Positions 17,404 to 51,764 of a stretch of DNA of 64,000 nt are shown piece after piece (the stretch's first letter is position 1; each line of letters begins with the position of its first letter). The DNA lies in assembly GCF_000687555.1 (NCBI RefSeq), contig NZ_JHWJ01000005.1, positions 248,001 through 312,000 on the forward strand. Reading direction: 5' to 3'. The position numbers and the translations under genes are program-made. The notes under the pieces are model-generated. The model was not told the DNA's origin. It ran no database searches and worked only from the letters and a program-made list of their open reading frames with translations. The DNA comes from [Clostridium] aerotolerans DSM 5434. Its GTDB lineage: Bacteria; Bacillota; Clostridia; Lachnospirales; Lachnospiraceae.

Positions 17404-17418
17404 TATTATGAAAGGTAA

Positions 17419-17459
17419 GTTAGCATGTGCTAACCCCGTAATTGCCTGTGATCAGGCAA
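17419..17459 (+). promoter_or_regulatory. Two tandem hairpins in the suf leader
   Basis: GTTAGCATGTGCTAAC (17419-17434) and an 18-base repeat at 17442-17459 (TTGCCTG, TGAT, CAGGCAA) can each fold just before the AAAGGAGG ribosome site of sufC. Neither is followed by a T-run. They may stabilise the mRNA or affect translation. Confidence 0.5.
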
Positions 17460-23856: not shown

Positions 23857-23893
23857 AAAAAAGGGCAGGAACTTCCAAAGAAGCCTCCACCCT
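23857..23893 (-). terminator. Terminator hairpin in the sodium-pump leader, possible attenuator
   Basis: On the minus strand a stem of about 14 pairs (one mismatch, several G-T) ends in six T. It lies between the promoter at 23971-23999 and the gamma-like gene, with a second hairpin (23914-23940, arms ACAGATA/TATCTGT) upstream. It could end transcripts of the sugar ABC operon or attenuate the sodium-pump genes. Confidence 0.65.
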
Positions 23894-23970
23894 AAAAGCA
23901 ACAATTCTTGAAAACAGATACAAAATACTGAAATATCTGTCCAACCGGATCAATCATATTTATTTTATAT

Positions 23971-44217: not shown

Positions 44218-45462
44218 TTACTCTTCTTCCTCTTCCTGCTCCAACAGAGCATTGAGCCATAGTCCTGCCAGATGAATGGCTCCATGAAATCCAACGAAGG
44301 GAGGATCATAAGGACTTAGTCTCCATCTGACATCTGGATTGCTGATTTGAAGTTCCAATCCTTTTCCTGCCCATTTTAAAGCTTCTCCACTTCCCATGAA
44401 GATTCCTTTTTTTCGATTTCTCACTGTTTTGGACCATTCCTCCTCTGAGAAGTATGGTATATCCTCATCTCCCATGTCCGGACTATCACACCAGCAGTCT
44501 CCCCGGTACAAAGACAGCTCCTTATGGCCATATTCCAGGATTCCTTTTACTATATCTGCGTGACCTCCCAGAGAAATAGTGGCTTCATCCGGGTGGGAAC
44601 GAATCATATGATTTAAAACAGGCATTGCAGGTCTTAAATGATTCCTGGCTCCATTGGCTTCCTGGTTCACAAAGTCACGGTCTGCCTCCACCCCCAGGGT
44701 ATTTGATATGTTTATAATCCAGGAAAGAGTTCCTTCTATTCCATAAGGCCTGCCGATCACATAGGGTGTGTCAAATCGTTTTTCTAAATATTTTGCCGCC
44801 TTTTCTCCTTCTCTTCTGACCACTATATTGATATGAGCTCCTCCCATATCCATTACCTGGCTTGCCGAGGTATGAGATGTCATCACGCAAACCGGGTCCA
44901 TGTTAAAAGCTCCTTTCAGGATTCTCACCATTTCTTCTGCATCAGCCTGAAAGCGAAACATATCTGCACAGGAACCAATGATATTAAAGGTAGGGTGAGA
45001 TGTTTTTTCCCGCTCTTTTGGAAGCTCCTTCGCCAGTAAAAGAAGGGCTTCTTCTACCCCTTCGTATCCATGGACATGAAAGCCTCCTGCCCCAAAGGGG
45101 AGTAAAGGAATATCCGGATATTCCGGCTGCAGTTCCTTACAGATCGCATTTAAATCCGTTCCAATGACGGTTGGAACGGAAGAAGGAAGGAAAAAGATGA
45201 TTTCCGGCTTATCTTTTTCTACGATTTCAGCAATTGTGCGGTTAAGCCGCTTGGTATCACCCATGGAAATATCTGTTTCGTCGATGTGCGTCGAGTACAG
45301 CCTGCACCCTTCTGCCACTCCTGCCTGATTTAAAAACACCCGGCTATACAGCATATGTCCCATACAGCCATATTCAATCAGAGCTGCACCGCGAATGGTC
45401 CCAAGGGTGCGTAAAGTGCCCATTCTGCCGGAAAGAGGCGGTCTGAATCTATGTAATCCCAT
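44218..45462 (-). CDS. Nitrogenase component 1-like protein, NifN/NifK-like subunit
   Basis: A 414-residue oxidoreductase component 1 homologue. Of the three cluster cysteines of NifK only one is kept, Cys33 in YGCMGHMLYS. The first position reads Pro, and the third is Ser in PSSVPTVIGTDLN, where NifK has Cys before VIGDD. This matches NifN, which gives a single Cys. The C-terminus has an acidic poly-Glu tail. Start MGLHRF is nine bases after AAGGAG; an ATG nine bases further upstream directly abuts that site. It is the last gene of the operon and the predicted partner of the NifE-like protein. Substrate unknown. Confidence 0.85.
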   Translation of the reverse strand: MGLHRFRPPLSGRMGTLRTLGTIRGAALIEYGCMGHMLYSRVFLNQAGVAEGCRLYSTHIDETDISMGDTKRLNRTIAEIVEKDKPEIIFFLPSSVPTVIGTDLNAICKELQPEYPDIPLLPFGAGGFHVHGYEGVEEALLLLAKELPKEREKTSHPTFNIIGSCADMFRFQADAEEMVRILKGAFNMDPVCVMTSHTSASQVMDMGGAHINIVVRREGEKAAKYLEKRFDTPYVIGRPYGIEGTLSWIINISNTLGVEADRDFVNQEANGARNHLRPAMPVLNHMIRSHPDEATISLGGHADIVKGILEYGHKELSLYRGDCWCDSPDMGDEDIPYFSEEEWSKTVRNRKKGIFMGSGEALKWAGKGLELQISNPDVRWRLSPYDPPFVGFHGAIHLAGLWLNALLEQEEEEE

Positions 45463-45487
45463 TTCAATCATCTCCTTACCTGTTGGT

Positions 45488-46738
45488 TTATTTTAAAGCG
45501 CTTATCAGTCTTTTTAATAATAATTCTGTCCGTTCGTAGCCAGCCTGTCCGTATAGTTCATCTAAGTGGGGGACAAAGGGAATCTTCCCATTTCCGCCAG
45601 GTATCTCTCCAAAAGAAACATCTGGGCTTAACTCCTCGAGCATCCTTGCATCGGATGGTTCATTTACCATATGGCAAAGATAGGGATTCTGTCCTTGTTC
45701 CAGAAGAAGCTTCGACCATCTTTTATCATCCGGATAAAACTCTTCCATGTGAAGCAGCAATGGGTCCATCCCCAGCTTTAACAGATAATGAGCCAGCGGC
45801 AGTGTCATTAAGGTGTTTCGATGGGTCGTGACAAAGCGGAGCCCTTTTACTATTTCTTTTGCCTCTGCCTCTGAATGGGCAGCTGCCTTTCTTGATTTTT
45901 GAAAACCATCTCCCCACTGAATGCCTAACTTTGCAGCAATGTCATGATATAGATGGTCAATACCATCTACGTCATAGACTTCATGAACACTGACAAAGGG
46001 GACTCCAAAACGCTTTTCCATCCGTTTGGCAAGAGGGTTCATATAAGGGGAAAGCACAAGATTCAGTGCTCCGTCTGGTGCGGAGACAAAATCTGTGATA
46101 TCAGATTTTGGTGCCAGATAACGAAGGGTCATATTTCTGGCTTCAAGTGCCTGTAAAAGCTCTGGCATAGGAATATGGTCTTCTTCTTTGCTCCTGCCCA
46201 GAATGTTTACCACATCCGGGCGTTTTTTAGAAGGCTCCATCATCTCTACAAAGGACTCCAGGGTTTTATAGAAACCGGAAGGATAGCTGTTACATTTAAA
46301 ATGAGGCATCTGCACATAGTTAAGTCTGGCTTCTGTTTCGGGCTGCAGCTCTCGAATGATCCCTTCCATATCTTCCCCTATGACTTCGGGAACACAGGTG
46401 GAAATCAGCATAATCGCCCTTGCTCCAGCTGCCTCCATTTCCTTAACAGCCTGCATGACTCCCTTTCTGCATCCAAAAACCACCTCATTGGAATCCAGCA
46501 CATACATCCAGTGGAGAGTATGATCGTCCGGCTTATTTTTCTCAATAATGCTGCGGCTGTAATTGCCGCATTCTGCCGTTCCGATCAATAGGGTGGACAT
46601 TCCTTTAATATTGGAACTCAGCGCCAATGCAGTGTGCATGGGACAATGATTGCCGGGAAAAGCGGCTGGAGTGAGGAATTTAATTCCTGCATTGGATTTA
46701 ACGGCAGATAATCTCTTTAAGTGCTTTAACTCAATCAT
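45488..46738 (-). CDS. Nitrogenase component 1-like protein, NifE/NifD-like subunit
   Basis: A 416-residue homologue with all three cluster cysteines in NifD/NifE register: Cys32 (GNHCPMH), Cys57 (AECGNYS) and Cys115 ([11 protein letters not shown]). FGCRKGV stands where NifD has GGDKKL. The FeMo-cofactor Cys position (NifD Cys275, HCYRS) reads LSPYM here, so cofactor binding of the nitrogenase kind is not expected. The start overlaps the NifH-like gene by eight bases, with GGAGG eight bases upstream. With the NifN-like protein it should form a tetramer holding a [4Fe-4S] cluster, fed by the NifH-like reductase. Confidence 0.87.
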
Positions 46739-47492
46739 CCTTAAGTCCTCCTTCCAGCAACAGCCTTGCTAAAGAACGGTAATGCTCTGCCATATCAGAA
46801 TCCGGCAAGGCCTCAATTACGGTCTTTCCTTCTGCCTCCGCCTGTTGAACGGCGCCATCTCTTGGCAGGCAGTAAAGAATTGAGGCATCGATTTCAGCGG
46901 CTGCTTTTTGAACCAGTTCCTCTTCCCGCTCAATATTCTTGGAATTTAATATAAGCCCTCTAAGACTTGCATAGCCCCGGCTTCCAAAGCTTTTCACCGC
47001 ATGAGCAATATTGGAAGCCGCATAGAGGGACATCATTTCCCCTGAGGTTACAATACATACCTCATCCGCATAGCCGCCGCGGATGGGCATGGCAAATCCT
47101 CCGCAGACCACATCTCCAAGCACGTCATAAAGTACTACATCCGGCCGGTATGTATCGTAAGCTTCCAGTTCCTCCAATTTCTCAAACGCAGTTATGATTC
47201 CTCTTCCGGCACAGCCGATTCCTGGCACGGGACCGCCTGCCTCCACGCAAAGCACTCCGGTACTGCTTTTGACCACAAAATCCTCCAATTCCGCATCTCC
47301 CTGATCTCTTAAAATATCCAGTACAGTAGGAATATTTTTTCCGCCAGTTAAGTTCCTTGTAGAATCCGCCTTTGGGTCACAGCCGATTTGCAGCACGGTT
47401 TTCCCCATTTCAGCCATGGCTGCCGATATATTTGAAACTGTGGTGGATTTTCCAATTCCGCCTTTTCCGTAAATTGCGATTTTTTTCATCAT
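46731..47492 (-). CDS. NifH-like nitrogenase reductase homologue
   Basis: A 253-residue Fe protein, shorter than NifH (about 275-295). It has the P-loop [18 protein letters not shown], the cluster cysteines in GIGCAGRGI and [12 protein letters not shown], and the switch regions around them. Two such subunits would share one [4Fe-4S] cluster and pass electrons to the NifEN-like pair with ATP hydrolysis. ATGs at 47492 and 47489 are both usable. It lies 41 bases after the second permease gene. No nifB, nifV or molybdenum genes are in the window. Confidence 0.9.
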
Positions 47493-47533
47493 TTTCCTGC
47501 CTTTCTTTGCTTATGCCTTATTTCCTATTTCAC

Positions 47534-48574
47534 TCAGTTTCTGCGCTTCCTTAGCAGATATAAAAAGTATGGTGCCCCTATGACAGCAGTTACCAGACCG
47601 GCCGGCAGCTCAGAGGGCTGAACAATGGTTCTTCCCACGGTATCCGCTGCCAGGACCAGGACCGACCCTGTCAGGGCACATACGGGCAAAAGGATTTGGT
47701 GACGTGATCCTACCAGTTTCGCCGCCAGGTGAGGTGCAATTAGTCCCACAAAGCCAATGCCACCACTAACAGCCACACAGGAACCAGCCAGCGCTACTGC
47801 TGACGAAAGGAGAAATATTCGCTGACGTGAAACTGAAATACCCAGTCCGCCAGCCACTTCTTCTCCCAGACTCAAGACATCAAGAACAAGAGCCTTTGAC
47901 CAAACATAGAATCCAAGTATAAAAATCCATGGCAGCAAAGCCATGACGTAGTTCCAATTTGCTCCCCATATGGTCCCTGCCTGCCAGGCGGCCACAAAAT
48001 TGTATTGGGTTTCGTCAAGCCTGACCACAGTTACCGTCGTCAAGGCAGTTAAGCCTGCCTGTAAAGCCACCCCCACTAAGATCAGACGAACCGGAGATGC
48101 TTCCCTTCGCCTAGCATACGCCAGAATATAAATGAAAAAGGACGTTACTCCTCCCCCAGCCATGGCGATGAAGGGCATGGTAAAGACAGACAAAAAGGAC
48201 TGTGTCCCAAGAAATAACACATACATGGTAACTGCAAAGCCAGCCCCGGCATGAATTCCCAGGAGCCCCGGATCTGCCAGGGAATTTCCCAGTACCGCCT
48301 GTATGATACGGCCGGAAATAGAAAGACCTGCCCCCACCAGTATGGAAATCACGATGCGAGGGAGGCGAAACTGAAATAAAACCAGATTTTCTTTCCCGCT
48401 GCCACCTCCAAAAAGAGTACGAAGCGTATCAAATGGAGATAGCCTTATTTGACCTGTATTCATGCTGACCAACAGTGTAAAGAGGAGTATTCCACATAAA
48501 ATCACCACCACTCCATGGGTTCGGGCAAGACGCCTGCCCCTGTCAGTCTTAACTAACTCTTTCATGCTATTCAT
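47534..48574 (-). CDS. FecCD-family ABC permease (second)
   Basis: A 346-residue permease with about ten transmembrane segments; RIIQAVLGNSLADPGLLGIHAG and GGIGFVGLIAPHLA are diagnostic for iron-siderophore / B12 / heme importers. Its ATG overlaps the previous permease's stop by four bases, with AGGAGG inside that gene. It probably forms a heterodimer with the preceding permease. Confidence 0.92.
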   Translation of the reverse strand: MNSMKELVKTDRGRRLARTHGVVVILCGILLFTLLVSMNTGQIRLSPFDTLRTLFGGGSGKENLVLFQFRLPRIVISILVGAGLSISGRIIQAVLGNSLADPGLLGIHAGAGFAVTMYVLFLGTQSFLSVFTMPFIAMAGGGVTSFFIYILAYARRREASPVRLILVGVALQAGLTALTTVTVVRLDETQYNFVAAWQAGTIWGANWNYVMALLPWIFILGFYVWSKALVLDVLSLGEEVAGGLGISVSRQRIFLLSSAVALAGSCVAVSGGIGFVGLIAPHLAAKLVGSRHQILLPVCALTGSVLVLAADTVGRTIVQPSELPAGLVTAVIGAPYFLYLLRKRRN

Positions 48575-49611
48575 ACGTTACGCCTCCTTTGGCTGCATGC
48601 CAGATACAGAAAAAACGGGCCTCCAAGCAAAGCAATCACAGCACCCAAGGGTGTTTCAAAGGGTGGATTGACCAGCCGGGCGCCTAAATCCGCTGCAACA
48701 ACCAACGCCGCTCCAAAGATGGCGGAGACAGGAAGAATGCTTCGATAATCCACACCAACAAAATAACGGACGATATGAGGGACCATAAGTCCTACAAATC
48801 CAATTCCGCCAGCAATGGATACCGCTGTACCCGCTAATATAAGCACCAAACAGGAGCAGACTGCATTTACTGCCCCAGTATTCACACCAAGTCCTTTTGC
48901 GGTCTCCTGACCAAGACTGAGCAGTGATATTGACCGGGCCAGAAGAAAGGCACCAATCAGTCCTGCTGCAATCCAGGGAGATACCCCTTTTATCTGCTGC
49001 CAGTTTGCGCCTGCCGTCCCTCCTGTTGTCCAAAACATTACCTTCTGGGAGACATTAAAATGCAAACCAATTCCCTGGCTGAATGCAGTCAATAGCGCAC
49101 TGACCGCTGCTCCTGCCAATACAATTCTTCCAGATTCATTTGTTCCTCCTCTCATGCCAGAGGCCCCAGTAACCATTCCTGCCCCCAGGGCTGCTCCTGC
49201 AAATGCCGCCCACATCATCTCCTGATATCCCAGACCAGGATAGAAGGCAAAGCAGACCGAAAGAGAAAAGACCGCCCCAGCATTGAGGCCCATAAGCCCG
49301 GAATCTGCCAAAGGATTCTTCGTCATTGCCTGCATCATTGCCCCGGCTACAGCAAGTGAAGCTCCAACCATTGCCCCAGTGACCACTCTGGGAAGCCGCA
49401 GATCCATAATAATTAAATGCTGGGACTTGCCGGCATCATACTGTGTCACTGCCTCCCACAAGGTCTTAACAGATATATCTGACGCCCCGCCCATCACGGA
49501 AGCTGTCATGGCGAAAAGAAGTAATAAGAGACCTCCTAAAAGAGCCAGACACGTCTTTCTCAAATGATTCTTTTGGTAACCGGTTTGTTCTGTAGAAATG
49601 CTCGGTTTCAT
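48571..49611 (-). CDS. FecCD-family ABC permease (first)
   Basis: A 346-residue permease of the same family, with MMQAMTKNPLADSGLMGLNAG and GGIGFVGLMVPHIVR. TAGGAGGG precedes the start. The pair would import an iron chelate, corrinoid or tetrapyrrole. The FecE-type ATPase expected next to these genes is absent; the nitrogenase-like genes stand in its place. Confidence 0.92.
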   Translation of the reverse strand: MKPSISTEQTGYQKNHLRKTCLALLGGLLLLLFAMTASVMGGASDISVKTLWEAVTQYDAGKSQHLIIMDLRLPRVVTGAMVGASLAVAGAMMQAMTKNPLADSGLMGLNAGAVFSLSVCFAFYPGLGYQEMMWAAFAGAALGAGMVTGASGMRGGTNESGRIVLAGAAVSALLTAFSQGIGLHFNVSQKVMFWTTGGTAGANWQQIKGVSPWIAAGLIGAFLLARSISLLSLGQETAKGLGVNTGAVNAVCSCLVLILAGTAVSIAGGIGFVGLMVPHIVRYFVGVDYRSILPVSAIFGAALVVAADLGARLVNPPFETPLGAVIALLGGPFFLYLACSQRRRNV

Positions 49612-49635
49612 CGATCCCTCCTAAATTAAGTATAC

Positions 49636-49674
49636 AAAAAGCCGGGCAACTCACTGTCTTAACGTCGCCCGGCT
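49636..49674 (-). terminator. Intra-operon terminator between the binding protein and permease genes
   Basis: On the minus strand AGCCGGGC with GCCCGGCT (extendable to 11 pairs with one mismatch), then five T. Placed after the lipoprotein gene, it should lower expression of the permease and nitrogenase-like genes relative to the binding protein. Confidence 0.75.
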
Positions 49675-49692
49675 AATCCTATGATAATTCCG

Positions 49693-50649
49693 TTACTTGA
49701 CCAATGATTCCGTCAGTCCCTTTGCTGCTGCCTGTATGGCAAGAGGACTTGTGGTATTCAAAGAGCCATCCAGATAAACGACTTGCTGGTTCTTGACCGC
49801 CGTTAGATTATTCCATACGGCAGACGCTTCCAGGGACGTTACAAGGCCTTTGGCATCGGAAATAAAGTCCTGAAAAATAATATAATCCGGATCCAGCTCA
49901 GAGAGAGTCTCTAATGAAATCACGCCCCATTCCTCAGGATATCCATCTGGTATGGAGAGTCCAAAGCCGGAGGCTTTATCATAATAGTAAGGATATCGGG
50001 AGGTTCCAAGGGCAAATACTCCACCCTTTCCATCGGAACGAACAAAAACCGCCGTCTTATCGCCTATGCCTGCGAGCTTTTCTCTTGCTTCCGACATAAT
50101 TTTTTCTGTTTCCGTAATTCGCTGCTCTGCTAAGTATTCCTTACCTACGATCTTAGCACAATCACGTATGGAATCCTGCCAGCTTGCTGTATAATCCAGC
50201 ATAACTACCGGAGCTATTTGCGTCAGCTGGTCATATATTTCATTTACTCCCCCTTGCCCGTTAAAGGTAACGATTACATCCGGATCGGATGCAAGAATTG
50301 CTTCTAAGTTAAGCTGGCGTGCGCTTCCTAAGTCAATAATATCCGCGGTTCCCTTAAAGGGGCGAAGTGTTTCGAATTCTTCCAGCGCTTTCATTGCTGT
50401 TCCTGTATTGGCGCCAGCCGAAGCAATTGGCGGCGTATCCAGTGCAAAGAAATACTCCAGATACATGGAATGCAGGATTGCAATTCTTTCCGGCTGTTTC
50501 TCTAAAACCACCTCATGCCCTGCCGCATCCTTAAAACTTCTTGGCCACTGGGAACCAGTGACTGCTGCCTCTTTGGGTGCTTTGGCACAACCACTGATCA
50601 GGCAGGAGAAAACTGCAATGGAAAGAAGTATTTTCATCATTTTTTTCAT
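49693..50649 (-). CDS. Iron-siderophore / tetrapyrrole-type ABC binding lipoprotein
   Basis: A 318-residue FecB/BtuF-type lipoprotein. Signal peptide MKKMMKILLSIAVFSCL ends in the lipobox ISGC with Cys21. The body has ERIAILHSMYLEYFFALD, DLGSARQLNLEAILASDPDVIV and LSELDPDYIIFQDF, typical of the cluster that binds metal chelates through two lobes joined by a helix. GGAGG precedes the start. Ligand class (siderophore, heme, corrinoid or other) is not resolved. Confidence 0.9.
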   Translation of the reverse strand: MKKMMKILLSIAVFSCLISGCAKAPKEAAVTGSQWPRSFKDAAGHEVVLEKQPERIAILHSMYLEYFFALDTPPIASAGANTGTAMKALEEFETLRPFKGTADIIDLGSARQLNLEAILASDPDVIVTFNGQGGVNEIYDQLTQIAPVVMLDYTASWQDSIRDCAKIVGKEYLAEQRITETEKIMSEAREKLAGIGDKTAVFVRSDGKGGVFALGTSRYPYYYDKASGFGLSIPDGYPEEWGVISLETLSELDPDYIIFQDFISDAKGLVTSLEASAVWNNLTAVKNQQVVYLDGSLNTTSPLAIQAAAKGLTESLVK

Positions 50650-50697
50650 GTCATATCCTCCAGGTACTGAATGATGTTTTCCGTATTCAACTCATAC

Positions 50698-50726
50698 AGT
50701 ATAACAATGGAAGCATTTGATTGGAA
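50698..50726 (-). promoter_or_regulatory. Possible promoter of the transporter/nitrogenase-like operon
   Basis: On the minus strand TTCCAA (50721-50726), 17 bases and an extended -10 TGTTATACT (core 50698-50703). The weak -35 fits activation by the AraC protein encoded just upstream. Confidence 0.4.
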
Positions 50727-50736
50727 TGGAATAATC

Positions 50737-51567
50737 CTAAGATGGACATGGATTATTCCTGAATTTTTCACGAAAGCCGCTGGGCGTTATTCCAAACTGC
50801 TTTTTAAACAACCTGCTAAAATACAGCGGATCGTCGTAACCAACCCCTCGGGCAACGTCACTGATGAAAGCATCACTTGTAATGAGGATTTCCTTTGCCC
50901 GATTCAGACGGTACCGGAGAAGATAATCTCCCGGTCCCATTCCGGCATAGCTTCGAAATACATAAAACAAACGGTTTACGGTCACTCCATTTTGTTCCGC
51001 CAGTCCTCCTACTGTCAGCCCTTCCATATAATAATCATGAATATAGGAACGGACAGATTTAAAAAGCATATGGGAGCTGTCACTTGTCTGGCTTGCAGCA
51101 CTGATGAACATTTCCTCCAAAATGCAGCGAAACAACACTTCTGACTGAAAGGAAGAAAGAGCCCCAGGTTCTGAAAAAACTCTGCGAAGACGCCATAAAA
51201 GACCAGTCAGCCTGGGGCTATGCCCTACCGTCAGCTCAAAATGGGTATCAGGAAGAAACTCTCCCTCCGGCCGCTTCCCTGTTATGTCATAAAAAACAGA
51301 TATGTATTCCCACCTTCTATCTCCCAGAACAAGCTTGTCTAACATCATATCCGGTACACCATGAATAATTTTCCGGGAATCTGTGGTATAGAGAGTTCCA
51401 TCAAAGGCATACTGCGCTCTTCCGCTGATGGGAAATATAAATCCACGAAATGGAGCCGTTTTCTGTCTGCCGGAAGATCCAGGCTCTATTGCATAGTGAT
51501 AAACCCCTTGTACACATATAGAGGCATTGGAATAACTTTTTATAAACTGTTCTAATTCTGCATCCAT
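50737..51567 (-). CDS. AraC-family regulator of the transporter/nitrogenase-like operon
   Basis: A 276-residue regulator with an N-terminal sensing domain (residues 1-150, GFIFPISGRAQYAFDG) and a C-terminal helix-turn-helix pair containing TVGGLAEQNGVTVNRLFYVF and DVARGVGYDDPLYFSRLFKKQFG. Genes of this layout often sense the chelate imported by the transporter next to them. It is codirectional with and 87 bases before the lipoprotein gene. Confidence 0.87.
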   Translation of the reverse strand: MDAELEQFIKSYSNASICVQGVYHYAIEPGSSGRQKTAPFRGFIFPISGRAQYAFDGTLYTTDSRKIIHGVPDMMLDKLVLGDRRWEYISVFYDITGKRPEGEFLPDTHFELTVGHSPRLTGLLWRLRRVFSEPGALSSFQSEVLFRCILEEMFISAASQTSDSSHMLFKSVRSYIHDYYMEGLTVGGLAEQNGVTVNRLFYVFRSYAGMGPGDYLLRYRLNRAKEILITSDAFISDVARGVGYDDPLYFSRLFKKQFGITPSGFREKFRNNPCPS

Positions 51568-51764
51568 ATTTTCATCTCTTTTCTGATCTCTTTAAGTTAG
51601 TCCTATCTAACTACTAAATTATACTATTTCTCCCGGTTTCACGCAAGCAAAGGTGTAAAAATGACGTAGAAATACAATCATTTCCACATTCTTTTCCCCA
51701 TATTTTCATACTTTATGATATACTGAACTTGAATGTGAACAAAAAGAAAGGTGGTAGTTCTATT

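Follow-up and report, generated by a model that had tools for sequence, protein, structure and literature searches.

The window analysed here is a stretch of 64,000 nucleotides from [Clostridium] aerotolerans DSM 5434 (contig NZ_JHWJ01000005.1, positions 248,001 to 312,000), and the subject of interest is an operon in which nitrogenase-like genes follow those of an importer. Seven adjacent open reading frames (ORFs) lie on the minus strand at 44218-51567 in the order AraC, FecB, FecCD, FecCD, NifH-like, NifE-like, and NifN-like. Pfam assigns to them, in the same order, an AraC-type helix-turn-helix, Peripla_BP_2, FecCD, FecCD, Fer4_NifH, Oxidored_nitro, and Oxidored_nitro. An initial annotation had read the same gene set, strand, and order from the sequence, which the ORF calls and Pfam bear out. 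It had also called the nitrogenase-like genes "fused" to the importer; the genes are separate and nothing is fused. As a whole, its observation is partly confirmed.

The AraC-family regulator (50737..51567) has a C-terminal HTH_18 domain, and Pfam recognises no N-terminal domain in it. It is followed by a FecB-type substrate-binding lipoprotein (49693..50649) and two FecCD permease subunits (48571..49611 and 47534..48574), each recognised by Pfam. The top NCBIfam model for the FecB-type protein is an enterobactin binding protein, at 88.9 bits against a cut-off of 205. The metal-chelate importer proposed at first stands as to FecB and the two FecCD subunits and falls short in its ATPase: no ABC (ATP-binding cassette) ATPase gene, FecE, is among the seven genes of the operon. 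The nitrogenase-like part consists of a NifH-like ATP-dependent reductase component of 253 amino acids (46731..47492), a NifE/BchN-like component 1 subunit (45488..46738), and a NifN/BchB-like component 1 subunit (44218..45471), all on the minus strand.

Placement of the NifHEN-like proteins

Pfam places the three proteins within the nitrogenase superfamily, with 167.8 and 240.9 bits to Oxidored_nitro (cut-off 28.6 for each) and 322.9 bits to Fer4_NifH (cut-off 25). All NCBIfam component 1 models matched at an E-value of 1e-3 are far below their cut-offs, the top one being BchB at 88.5 bits versus 490. The NifH-like protein is under the cut-offs of NifH (336 versus 394), CfbC (its highest model, 340.4 versus 402), BchL, and BchX. 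Matches of both component 1 proteins to sequences in the PDB are all distant (E-value 2e-14 at best); the NifN-like protein is closest to 9fmg, the alpha chain of methylthio-alkane reductase, Mar (PMC12552129, in part), and to BchB, and the NifE-like protein to NifE and VnfK.

In an IQ-TREE phylogeny (64 rows, 401 columns), 23 NifE-like rows form one clade and 23 NifN-like rows another, each with support of 100/99, and the NifDKEN, AnfDK, Mar-like, group IV, BchNB, and BchYZ references fall outside both. The two clades show the same split into lineages A and B (the clade labels A1, A2, and B are coined here). Only locus L105 moves, standing with A2 in the NifE-like clade (weakly, 89/61) and with A1 in the NifN-like clade (99/90). 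This careful tree holds 23 loci, the long-branched Treponema locus L054 being left out; in a quick tree of 24 loci, its NifE-like row lies beside the others (92) and its NifN-like row does not. Mar is represented by stand-ins, namely Mar-like rows from the own genome and rows from Chlorohelix, and each Bch subunit by one Roseobacter row, whose long branches make the placement of the Bch rows themselves unsure. Grouping with the Mar-like or Bch families would speak against a distinct enzyme, and the proteins group with neither in this tree, outside which lie CfbD, Isr, and Rhodospirillum rubrum MarDK.

Several characterised enzymes share parts of this architecture. Dark-operative protochlorophyllide oxidoreductase (DPOR, BchL-BchNB) and chlorophyllide oxidoreductase (COR, BchX-BchYZ), of group V, likewise combine a NifH-like ATPase with two component 1 subunits, have three Cys in the alpha-type subunit, and lack the FeMo-cofactor Cys; DPOR also has a non-Cys fourth ligand, an Asp of BchB. 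The window proteins differ in forming separate clades (100/99), in holding His instead of Asp or Cys in the beta-subunit ligand column, in scoring 21 to 89 bits on the BchN, BchB, BchY, and BchZ models (cut-offs 324 to 912), and in their gene context, which is a siderophore-type importer and not chlorophyll genes. The NifEN scaffold, too, has two component 1 paralogues and a three-Cys alpha-type subunit, but the window proteins fall short of the cut-offs for NifE and NifN (80 and 48 bits versus 505 with the NifE model), have His in the NifN Cys column and no FeMo-cofactor Cys column, and belong to genes that also occur in hosts where NifB was not found. Nitrogenase proper (NifDK, VnfDK, AnfDK), which has six P-cluster Cys and the FeMo-cofactor Cys, was set aside on the same columns: the three NifE-like Cys are present, the NifN-like columns hold Ser, His, and Ser, and the FeMo-cofactor Cys column is gapped in 43 of 43 sequences.

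Mar and Isr, of group IV, are nitrogenase-like enzymes as well, and the Isr genes stand together with those of a transporter of the Isr substrate (PMC11423573, in part). Mar carries a P-cluster and an [Fe8S9C] cluster (PMC12552129, in part), and Isr requires a radical S-adenosylmethionine (SAM) partner (PMC11423573, in part); neither those clusters nor that partner would be expected for the window enzyme. The MarDK-like stand-in rows group elsewhere, and the Cys pattern of Isr differs (one in IsrD and three in IsrK, with IsrB as radical SAM partner); the window operon has no radical SAM gene. Ni-sirohydrochlorin reductive cyclase (CfbCD) resembles the window enzyme in its NifH-type component, CfbC being the NCBIfam model with the highest score given above (340 bits). 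Its CfbD is a homodimer, in contrast to the two component 1 paralogues here, which reach 24.2 and 21.2 bits on the CfbD model (cut-off 268.4). Judged by these comparisons, the NifHEN-like proteins appear to be an undescribed branch of the nitrogenase superfamily, to be filed under no named enzyme (with CfbD and Isr outside the tree), and the earlier view of a NifH-driven two-component reductase distinct from the enzymes compared is supported. Nitrogenase-like genes of unassigned function are described for N2-fixing Paenibacillus (PMC3961195, in part).

Of the ten component 1 matches in the host genome (4.73 Mb, 50 contigs), a nif cluster on contig 12 and a Mar-like cluster on contig 3 account for four each, and the window proteins are the other two. 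The contig 3 cluster (L025:4725-12376) encodes a NifB-like protein (under cut-off), a maturase-like component 1 pair, a NifH (over cut-off), a MarD-like protein (best PDB match 9fmg, 1.4e-91), a second component 1 protein, an amino-acid-type ABC transporter, and a glycerol-dehydrogenase-like protein. Within the nif cluster lies a NifN-NifB fusion (L026:5175-7826), whose NifN-like N-terminal half is just under cut-off and whose C-terminal NifB half is over it.

Predicted cluster ligands

Conserved residues were counted in 43 sequences of each kind, the window included. The component 1 counts omit L022 and L043 (incomplete), the NifH-like counts omit L013 (split ORF) and L043, and loci L086, L087, L088, and L036, whose NifE-like proteins are identical to those of L009, L020, L023, and L021, were dropped before counting. 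The P-loop GKGGIGKS and cysteines 94 and 130 of the NifH-like protein are kept in 43 of 43, in agreement with the initial annotation, which had noted a P-loop and both cluster cysteines. It had likewise placed three cysteines of the NifE-like protein in NifD/NifE register, and the alignment agrees: Cys32 and Cys57 (42 of 43 each, with one gap) and Cys115 (43 of 43) occupy the columns of the cluster cysteines of NifD, NifE, BchN, and BchY, and are the predicted cluster ligands. The missing FeMo-cofactor Cys is also borne out, its column being gapped in all 43, as it is in BchN and BchY.

The fourth ligand differs from that first assigned. A Cys33 of the NifN-like protein, counted from MGL, had been taken as completing a 3+1 cysteine scheme; it is Cys36 of the 417-residue ORF and one of seven cysteines in the protein. 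It lies three residues before the column that holds Cys in NifK, NifN, and BchZ and Asp in BchB. The window protein reads EYGCMGHMLYSR, compared with HGSQGC in NifK/NifN and HAPQGD in BchB, and the ungapped register, which is the likely one, puts His39 (His36 from MGL) in the ligand column. That column is His in 35 of 43 sequences (clades A1 and A2 and L105), Thr in seven (clade B, PAGTT), and Cys in the divergent Treponema row. The Cys36 column varies with clade, with Cys confined to A1 (25 of 43), Ser in A2 (9), Pro in B (7), and Ala in L105 and Treponema (2), and Cys33 as fourth ligand is not confirmed. Where NifK has two further cysteines, the NifN-like proteins have Ser, in 43 of 43 and 34 of 43 sequences. 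When the NifN half of a NifEN chain is aligned by profile, the ligand column pairs with the His. Two observations weigh against the His assignment, namely the Thr of clade B and a gapped profile alignment with the alpha-type chain MarD that pairs Cys36 with a cluster Cys. Because the ungapped register gives His39 while the MarD alignment pairs Cys36, we predict that one His joins the three Cys as ligand, Cys36 being the second choice.

A search for NifB at an E-value of 1e-20, in contigs of at least 3 kb, gave no match in 9 of 20 host genomes (P. sanguinis, T. pigra, A. nitritogenes, S. rhodanostii, C. tetanomorphum, C. hydrogeniformans, and three more), and therefore no L-cluster seems to be needed. 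Since the FeMo-cofactor Cys column is gapped throughout and NifB was not found in those hosts, each half of the enzyme would hold a single [4Fe-4S] cluster.

Importer linkage and regulation

The survey covers 45 distinct loci (49 minus four duplicates), 16 of them from a scan of named genomes. With the own genome counted, a NifE-like profile finds the gene in 16 of 25 genomes of the genus and 9 of 398 of the phylum (E-value 1e-60), and in 5 of 299 of the family (1e-50); with the centre genome counted, it finds 3 of 50 in the Seleniivibrio phylum and 1 of 45 in the family of genome G346. The closest named relative among the matches returned is Clostridium sp. 12(A), with a NifE-like protein 92% identical. 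Copies are plasmid-borne in Sporomusa termitida and, in a divergent version, in Treponema. FecCD genes stand beside the NifHEN-like genes in 41 of 45 loci (40 by BLAST and Treponema by annotation), a count that includes two Paenibacillus loci with a divergent importer and Treponema with the importer downstream. These loci span several Bacillota families, Seleniivibrio (Deferribacterota), Sporomusa, and Treponema. A FecE gene is found in 34 of 45 (33 by BLAST and Treponema by annotation), and in 36 of 45 the NifH-like gene has an AraC-type gene no more than 10 kb away. Clades A1 and A2 are arranged AraC-FecB-FecCD-FecCD-(FecE)-NifH-E-N and clade B NifH-FecB-FecCD-FecE-E-N. The order first noticed in the window recurs, then, and the transporter is not regularly separated from the NifHEN-like genes, which supports their co-inheritance with a metal-chelate importer.

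Promoters of the same loci carry iron-type motifs. The count covered 42 of 45 loci and gaps of at least 50 bp, used a 14-letter consensus for the Fur box, and accepted a palindrome from 11 of 12 letters; many loci of the genus are close kin, so that the Fisher p values overstate independence. A Fur box of at least 12 of 14 letters occurs in 16 of 108 operon promoters, two of them exact, versus 4 of 313 control promoters taken from these loci. The window operon has no Fur box at 11 or more of 14 letters; in its place, 5' of AraC, is the palindrome AGTTAGATAGGACTAACT (AGTTAG-N6-CTAACT, 51595-51612). The exact palindrome occurs in 29 of 108 operon promoters versus 7 of 313 controls, a count that is partly in-sample, the motif having been first spotted by eye in these loci. 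A Fur box or palindrome is present in 32 of the 42 scored loci.

A freer test is the scan of the own genome, where RGTTAGN6CTAACY has 16 sites versus 2 for the reversed control pattern. Nine of the 16 are at siderophore-import, AraC-SBP (substrate-binding protein), or FeoB/DtxR genes: the window operon, four sites at three FecB/FecCD loci (FecB with FecCD, a divergent FecCD/FecB pair with two sites, and another FecB), three AraC-SBP fusions, and the gap between FeoB (576 bp away) and a DtxR-family gene (103 bp). The remaining sites include an Fe/Mn superoxide dismutase, an AraC gene, a flavodoxin-fold protein, DUF3793, an HD-domain protein, and a topoisomerase. The palindrome-marked genes look like an iron regulon, and the palindrome is predicted to bind an iron-dependent repressor of the DtxR family. 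Another of the 16 sites, a second copy in the window (17418-17435), lies just 5' of an ABC ATPase gene taken for SufC because the next gene, SufB-like, is 67% identical to a SufB-core protein.

A second element, the direct repeat TTCAGGAATAATCCATG / CTTAGGATTATTCCATT with 22 bp spacing (50725..50763, minus strand), overlaps the end of AraC ahead of FecB. With up to two mismatches, the half-site TTCAGGAATAATCCAT precedes FecB, FecCD, or NifH in 13 of 20 loci scanned, and a second copy follows at a distance of 22 bp in the window, L009, L013, and L015, and of 21 bp in L022. The FecB gene of Tissierella is relocated to the opposite side of the operon, and a weaker pair with 22-bp spacing lies 5' of it there. 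The repeat is a predicted AraC operator, and behaves as one would, because the half-site is kept ahead of FecB and the weaker pair accompanies FecB in Tissierella. The window operon resembles a ferric-siderophore uptake operon in its FecB/FecCD genes, iron-type promoter motif, and AraC-type regulator, and departs from one in lacking FecE.

Neighbouring genes are more varied, the Pfam scan having covered some of them. An ABC-exporter-fold protein lies among the importer genes of L037 and L096, with similar ORFs in L097 and L098; this is the fold used by the importers of mycobactin and yersiniabactin. A flavodoxin-type gene is directly 3' of the operon in two clade B loci, L050 and L041. Neighbours in one or few loci were set aside: PhoU/Pst genes, aldo-keto reductases, a PFL-like protein, a DsbD-like protein, GMC oxidoreductases, and biotin genes. 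So was a luciferase-like monooxygenase between AraC and FecB in two Paenibacillus loci (L010:6757-8070, by Pfam; L011:6703-8016, by BLAST cluster), each under a 13-of-14 Fur box. Seleniivibrio woodruffii has AnfD and AnfK genes of an Fe-only nitrogenase about 5 kb from its operon (L024:17854-21216), and elsewhere in the window Rfam recognises a Na+ riboswitch aptamer (DUF1646; 23882-23946, 42.5 versus 40.5 bits).

Substrate and proposed function

Clues to the substrate come from relatives. Beside the operon of Sporomusa lies a TonB receptor gene whose annotation reads siderophore receptor, and the best PDB matches of this plasmid-encoded protein are FemA (9e-146) and BauA (3e-132). The TonB receptor 5' of the Seleniivibrio operon matches Cir, the colicin I receptor (1e-91), PirA (3e-59), and other ferric-enterobactin receptors (about 1e-54), far ahead of BtuB (5e-21) and PhuR (2e-20), and S. 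woodruffii has a copy 90% identical to it. Esterase-like hydrolases occur as well; that flanking the Sporomusa operon has an IroE-like serine hydrolase as its best PDB match (1.6e-14), and a convergent one in Scatolibacter matches BES (4e-9) and then IroE (5e-5). The initial annotation had left the substrate as an imported iron chelate, corrinoid, or other tetrapyrrole. The receptor types, the esterases, and the iron-regulon promoters favour the iron chelate, and the corrinoid or tetrapyrrole part is less supported. The substrate may on this basis be narrowed to a ferric siderophore, heme or corrinoid being the chief competing candidate. The reading we consider somewhat probable is that the operon serves to import a ferric siderophore and to free the iron through a reduction driven by ATP; the initial interpretation, as a whole, is partly supported.

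A number of observations weigh against this reading. TonB receptor genes were found in 3 of 45 loci (BLAST against two reference receptors) and esterase-like hydrolase genes in 2 of 45. The window locus has neither, so that its substrate type is extrapolated from relatives with NifE-like proteins of 48-57% identity. The PDB comparison covered two TonB receptors, with the second receptors of L019 and L052 outside it, and the same BLAST search found none in the examined stretch of L054 (Treponema) and L105, which we take to be from diderm groups. Ferulic acid esterase (1.3e-6) outscores the further siderophore esterases (3e-5) for the Sporomusa hydrolase, and the convergent Scatolibacter hydrolase may be an unrelated neighbour. 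Heme and cobalamin, too, are among the cargoes of FecBCD relatives, and four loci (L016, L020, L089, L105) lack FecCD. Ten of the 42 loci were scored without Fur box or palindrome; two of these, L009 and L085, do carry an exact palindrome, in an AraC gap too short to be scored. Finally, the scarcity of other siderophore reductases in the hosts, described below, may be common in anaerobes with or without the operon, the 20 genomes all being operon-bearing.

The main rival is that the enzyme reduces an imported tetrapyrrole such as heme or a corrinoid, either at the ring, as DPOR and COR do, or at the metal, so releasing iron or opening the macrocycle. DPOR and COR, which also lack the FeMo-cofactor Cys, act on tetrapyrroles (PMC11423573, in part), the FecB-type protein has weak similarity to IsdE (28.6 bits), and iron-regulated heme uptake would show the same promoter motifs. 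Even so, this appears unlikely: BtuB and heme receptors match the Seleniivibrio receptor about 70 orders of magnitude more weakly in E-value and are not among the 22 PDB matches listed for the Sporomusa receptor, whose best are siderophore receptors; two IroE/BES-like hydrolases accompany relatives; no Rfam cobalamin riboswitch or other Rfam operon signal reaches the gathering score in the window and seven loci; and no tetrapyrrole gene is among the neighbours scanned. The import and regulation evidence would fit equally an attack on the siderophore ligand, in which reductive cleavage of a hydroxamate N-O bond, an ester, or a catechol ring lowers affinity and frees iron, and the superfamily does cleave bonds (C-S in Mar; PMC12552129, in part). 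The two receptors, however, point to different siderophores, of mycobactin/acinetobactin type and catecholates, which have Fe(III) in common and no one obvious bond, and a one-cluster enzyme would suit single electron transfer; we regard ligand attack as improbable.

Very improbable, in our view, is a NifEN-like scaffold that uses imported iron to build or donate Fe-S clusters and is no chelate reductase. It draws on the genes for SufB-core and class-V aminotransferase (cysteine-desulfurase-like) proteins 5' of the operon AraC in L017:136-4368 (called by Pfam), with homologues in L018:135-4367 (by BLAST cluster), and on the own-genome ABC ATPase and SufB-like gene under the same palindrome. 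Yet frequent iron regulation of suf genes would account for the link, loci retain importer genes far more often than suf genes, and a scaffold sits poorly with the lack of a FeMo-cofactor or L-cluster Cys column and with hosts where NifB was not found. The slightest chance falls to a reductase of organic sulfur or another small substrate, like Mar or isethionate reductase, for which the importer would supply the substrate. Isr acts with an ABC transporter for its substrate (PMC11423573, in part), and the own genome has a Mar-like cluster beside an ABC transporter elsewhere; against this stand clades apart from the Mar-like and group IV rows (with Isr outside the tree), a window operon without a radical SAM gene, the FecBCD-type importer, and the iron-type promoter motifs.

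If the operon does serve ferric-siderophore reduction, FecB and the two FecCD subunits, powered by an ATPase encoded elsewhere in the genome, would carry the Fe(III)-siderophore into the cytoplasm. With ferredoxin or flavodoxin as electron donor, the NifH-like dimer would hydrolyse ATP and pass on single low-potential electrons to a [4Fe-4S] cluster at the NifE-like/NifN-like interface, held by three Cys from one subunit and probably one His from the other. This cluster would reduce the Fe(III) of a siderophore lying in the cavity equivalent to the FeMo-cofactor site of nitrogenase or the protochlorophyllide site of DPOR, and Fe(II) would then dissociate. AraC may sense the siderophore, an iron-responsive repressor of Fur or DtxR type would silence the operon when iron is plentiful, and the esterases of some loci may help with the tightest ligands.

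NAD(P)H cannot reduce the Fe(III) of catecholate siderophores, whose potential is too low (about -750 mV in enterobactin); hence Escherichia coli opens enterobactin hydrolytically, with Fes. The electrons supplied by a NifH-type ATPase are at a lower potential than those of ferredoxin. More tentatively, and with doubt slightly the larger share, the proteins may form an undescribed functional branch of ferric-siderophore reductases, ATP-gated and holding a [4Fe-4S] cluster of 3Cys:1His type (open-site in clade B); these would reduce the iron of intact, very stable siderophores at potentials beyond NAD(P)H and ferredoxin alone, so that anaerobes could raid foreign catecholate or mixed-ligand siderophores. 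FhuF and the siderophore-interacting proteins (SIPs) have the role predicted here, cytosolic reductive iron release from imported siderophores; they are unrelated to the window enzyme, and neither is known to use ATP. FhuF uses a [2Fe-2S] cluster and SIPs a flavin (PMC11357680, in part). FhuF was found in 2 of 20 host genomes, both Paenibacillus, and FAD_binding_9, the SIP domain, in 0 of 20. The siderophore would probably be made by other organisms: a search for siderophore synthesis in the hosts, which covered the 2,3-dihydroxybenzoate (DHB)-AMP ligase, put 0 of 20 genomes over cut-off, with weaker matches at an E-value of 1e-60 in 6 of 20.

Those nitrogenase-like enzymes whose roles are assigned in the papers cited here have as substrates N2, tetrapyrroles and F430 precursors, or C-S compounds (PMC11423573 and PMC12552129, each in part). 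No nitrogenase-like siderophore or iron-chelate reductase is among the matches listed in the open-access literature, as judged by titles and the starts of abstracts and with subscription journals and preprints outside that scope. If the proposal is true, an iron-acquisition branch would add a new kind of substrate, a metal complex, to the nitrogenase-like enzymes, and would suggest how anaerobes open ferric siderophores without FhuF or SIP. Its simple cluster inventory would serve the study of ATP-coupled electron transfer, and its role would bear on the relation between nitrogenase and iron metabolism.

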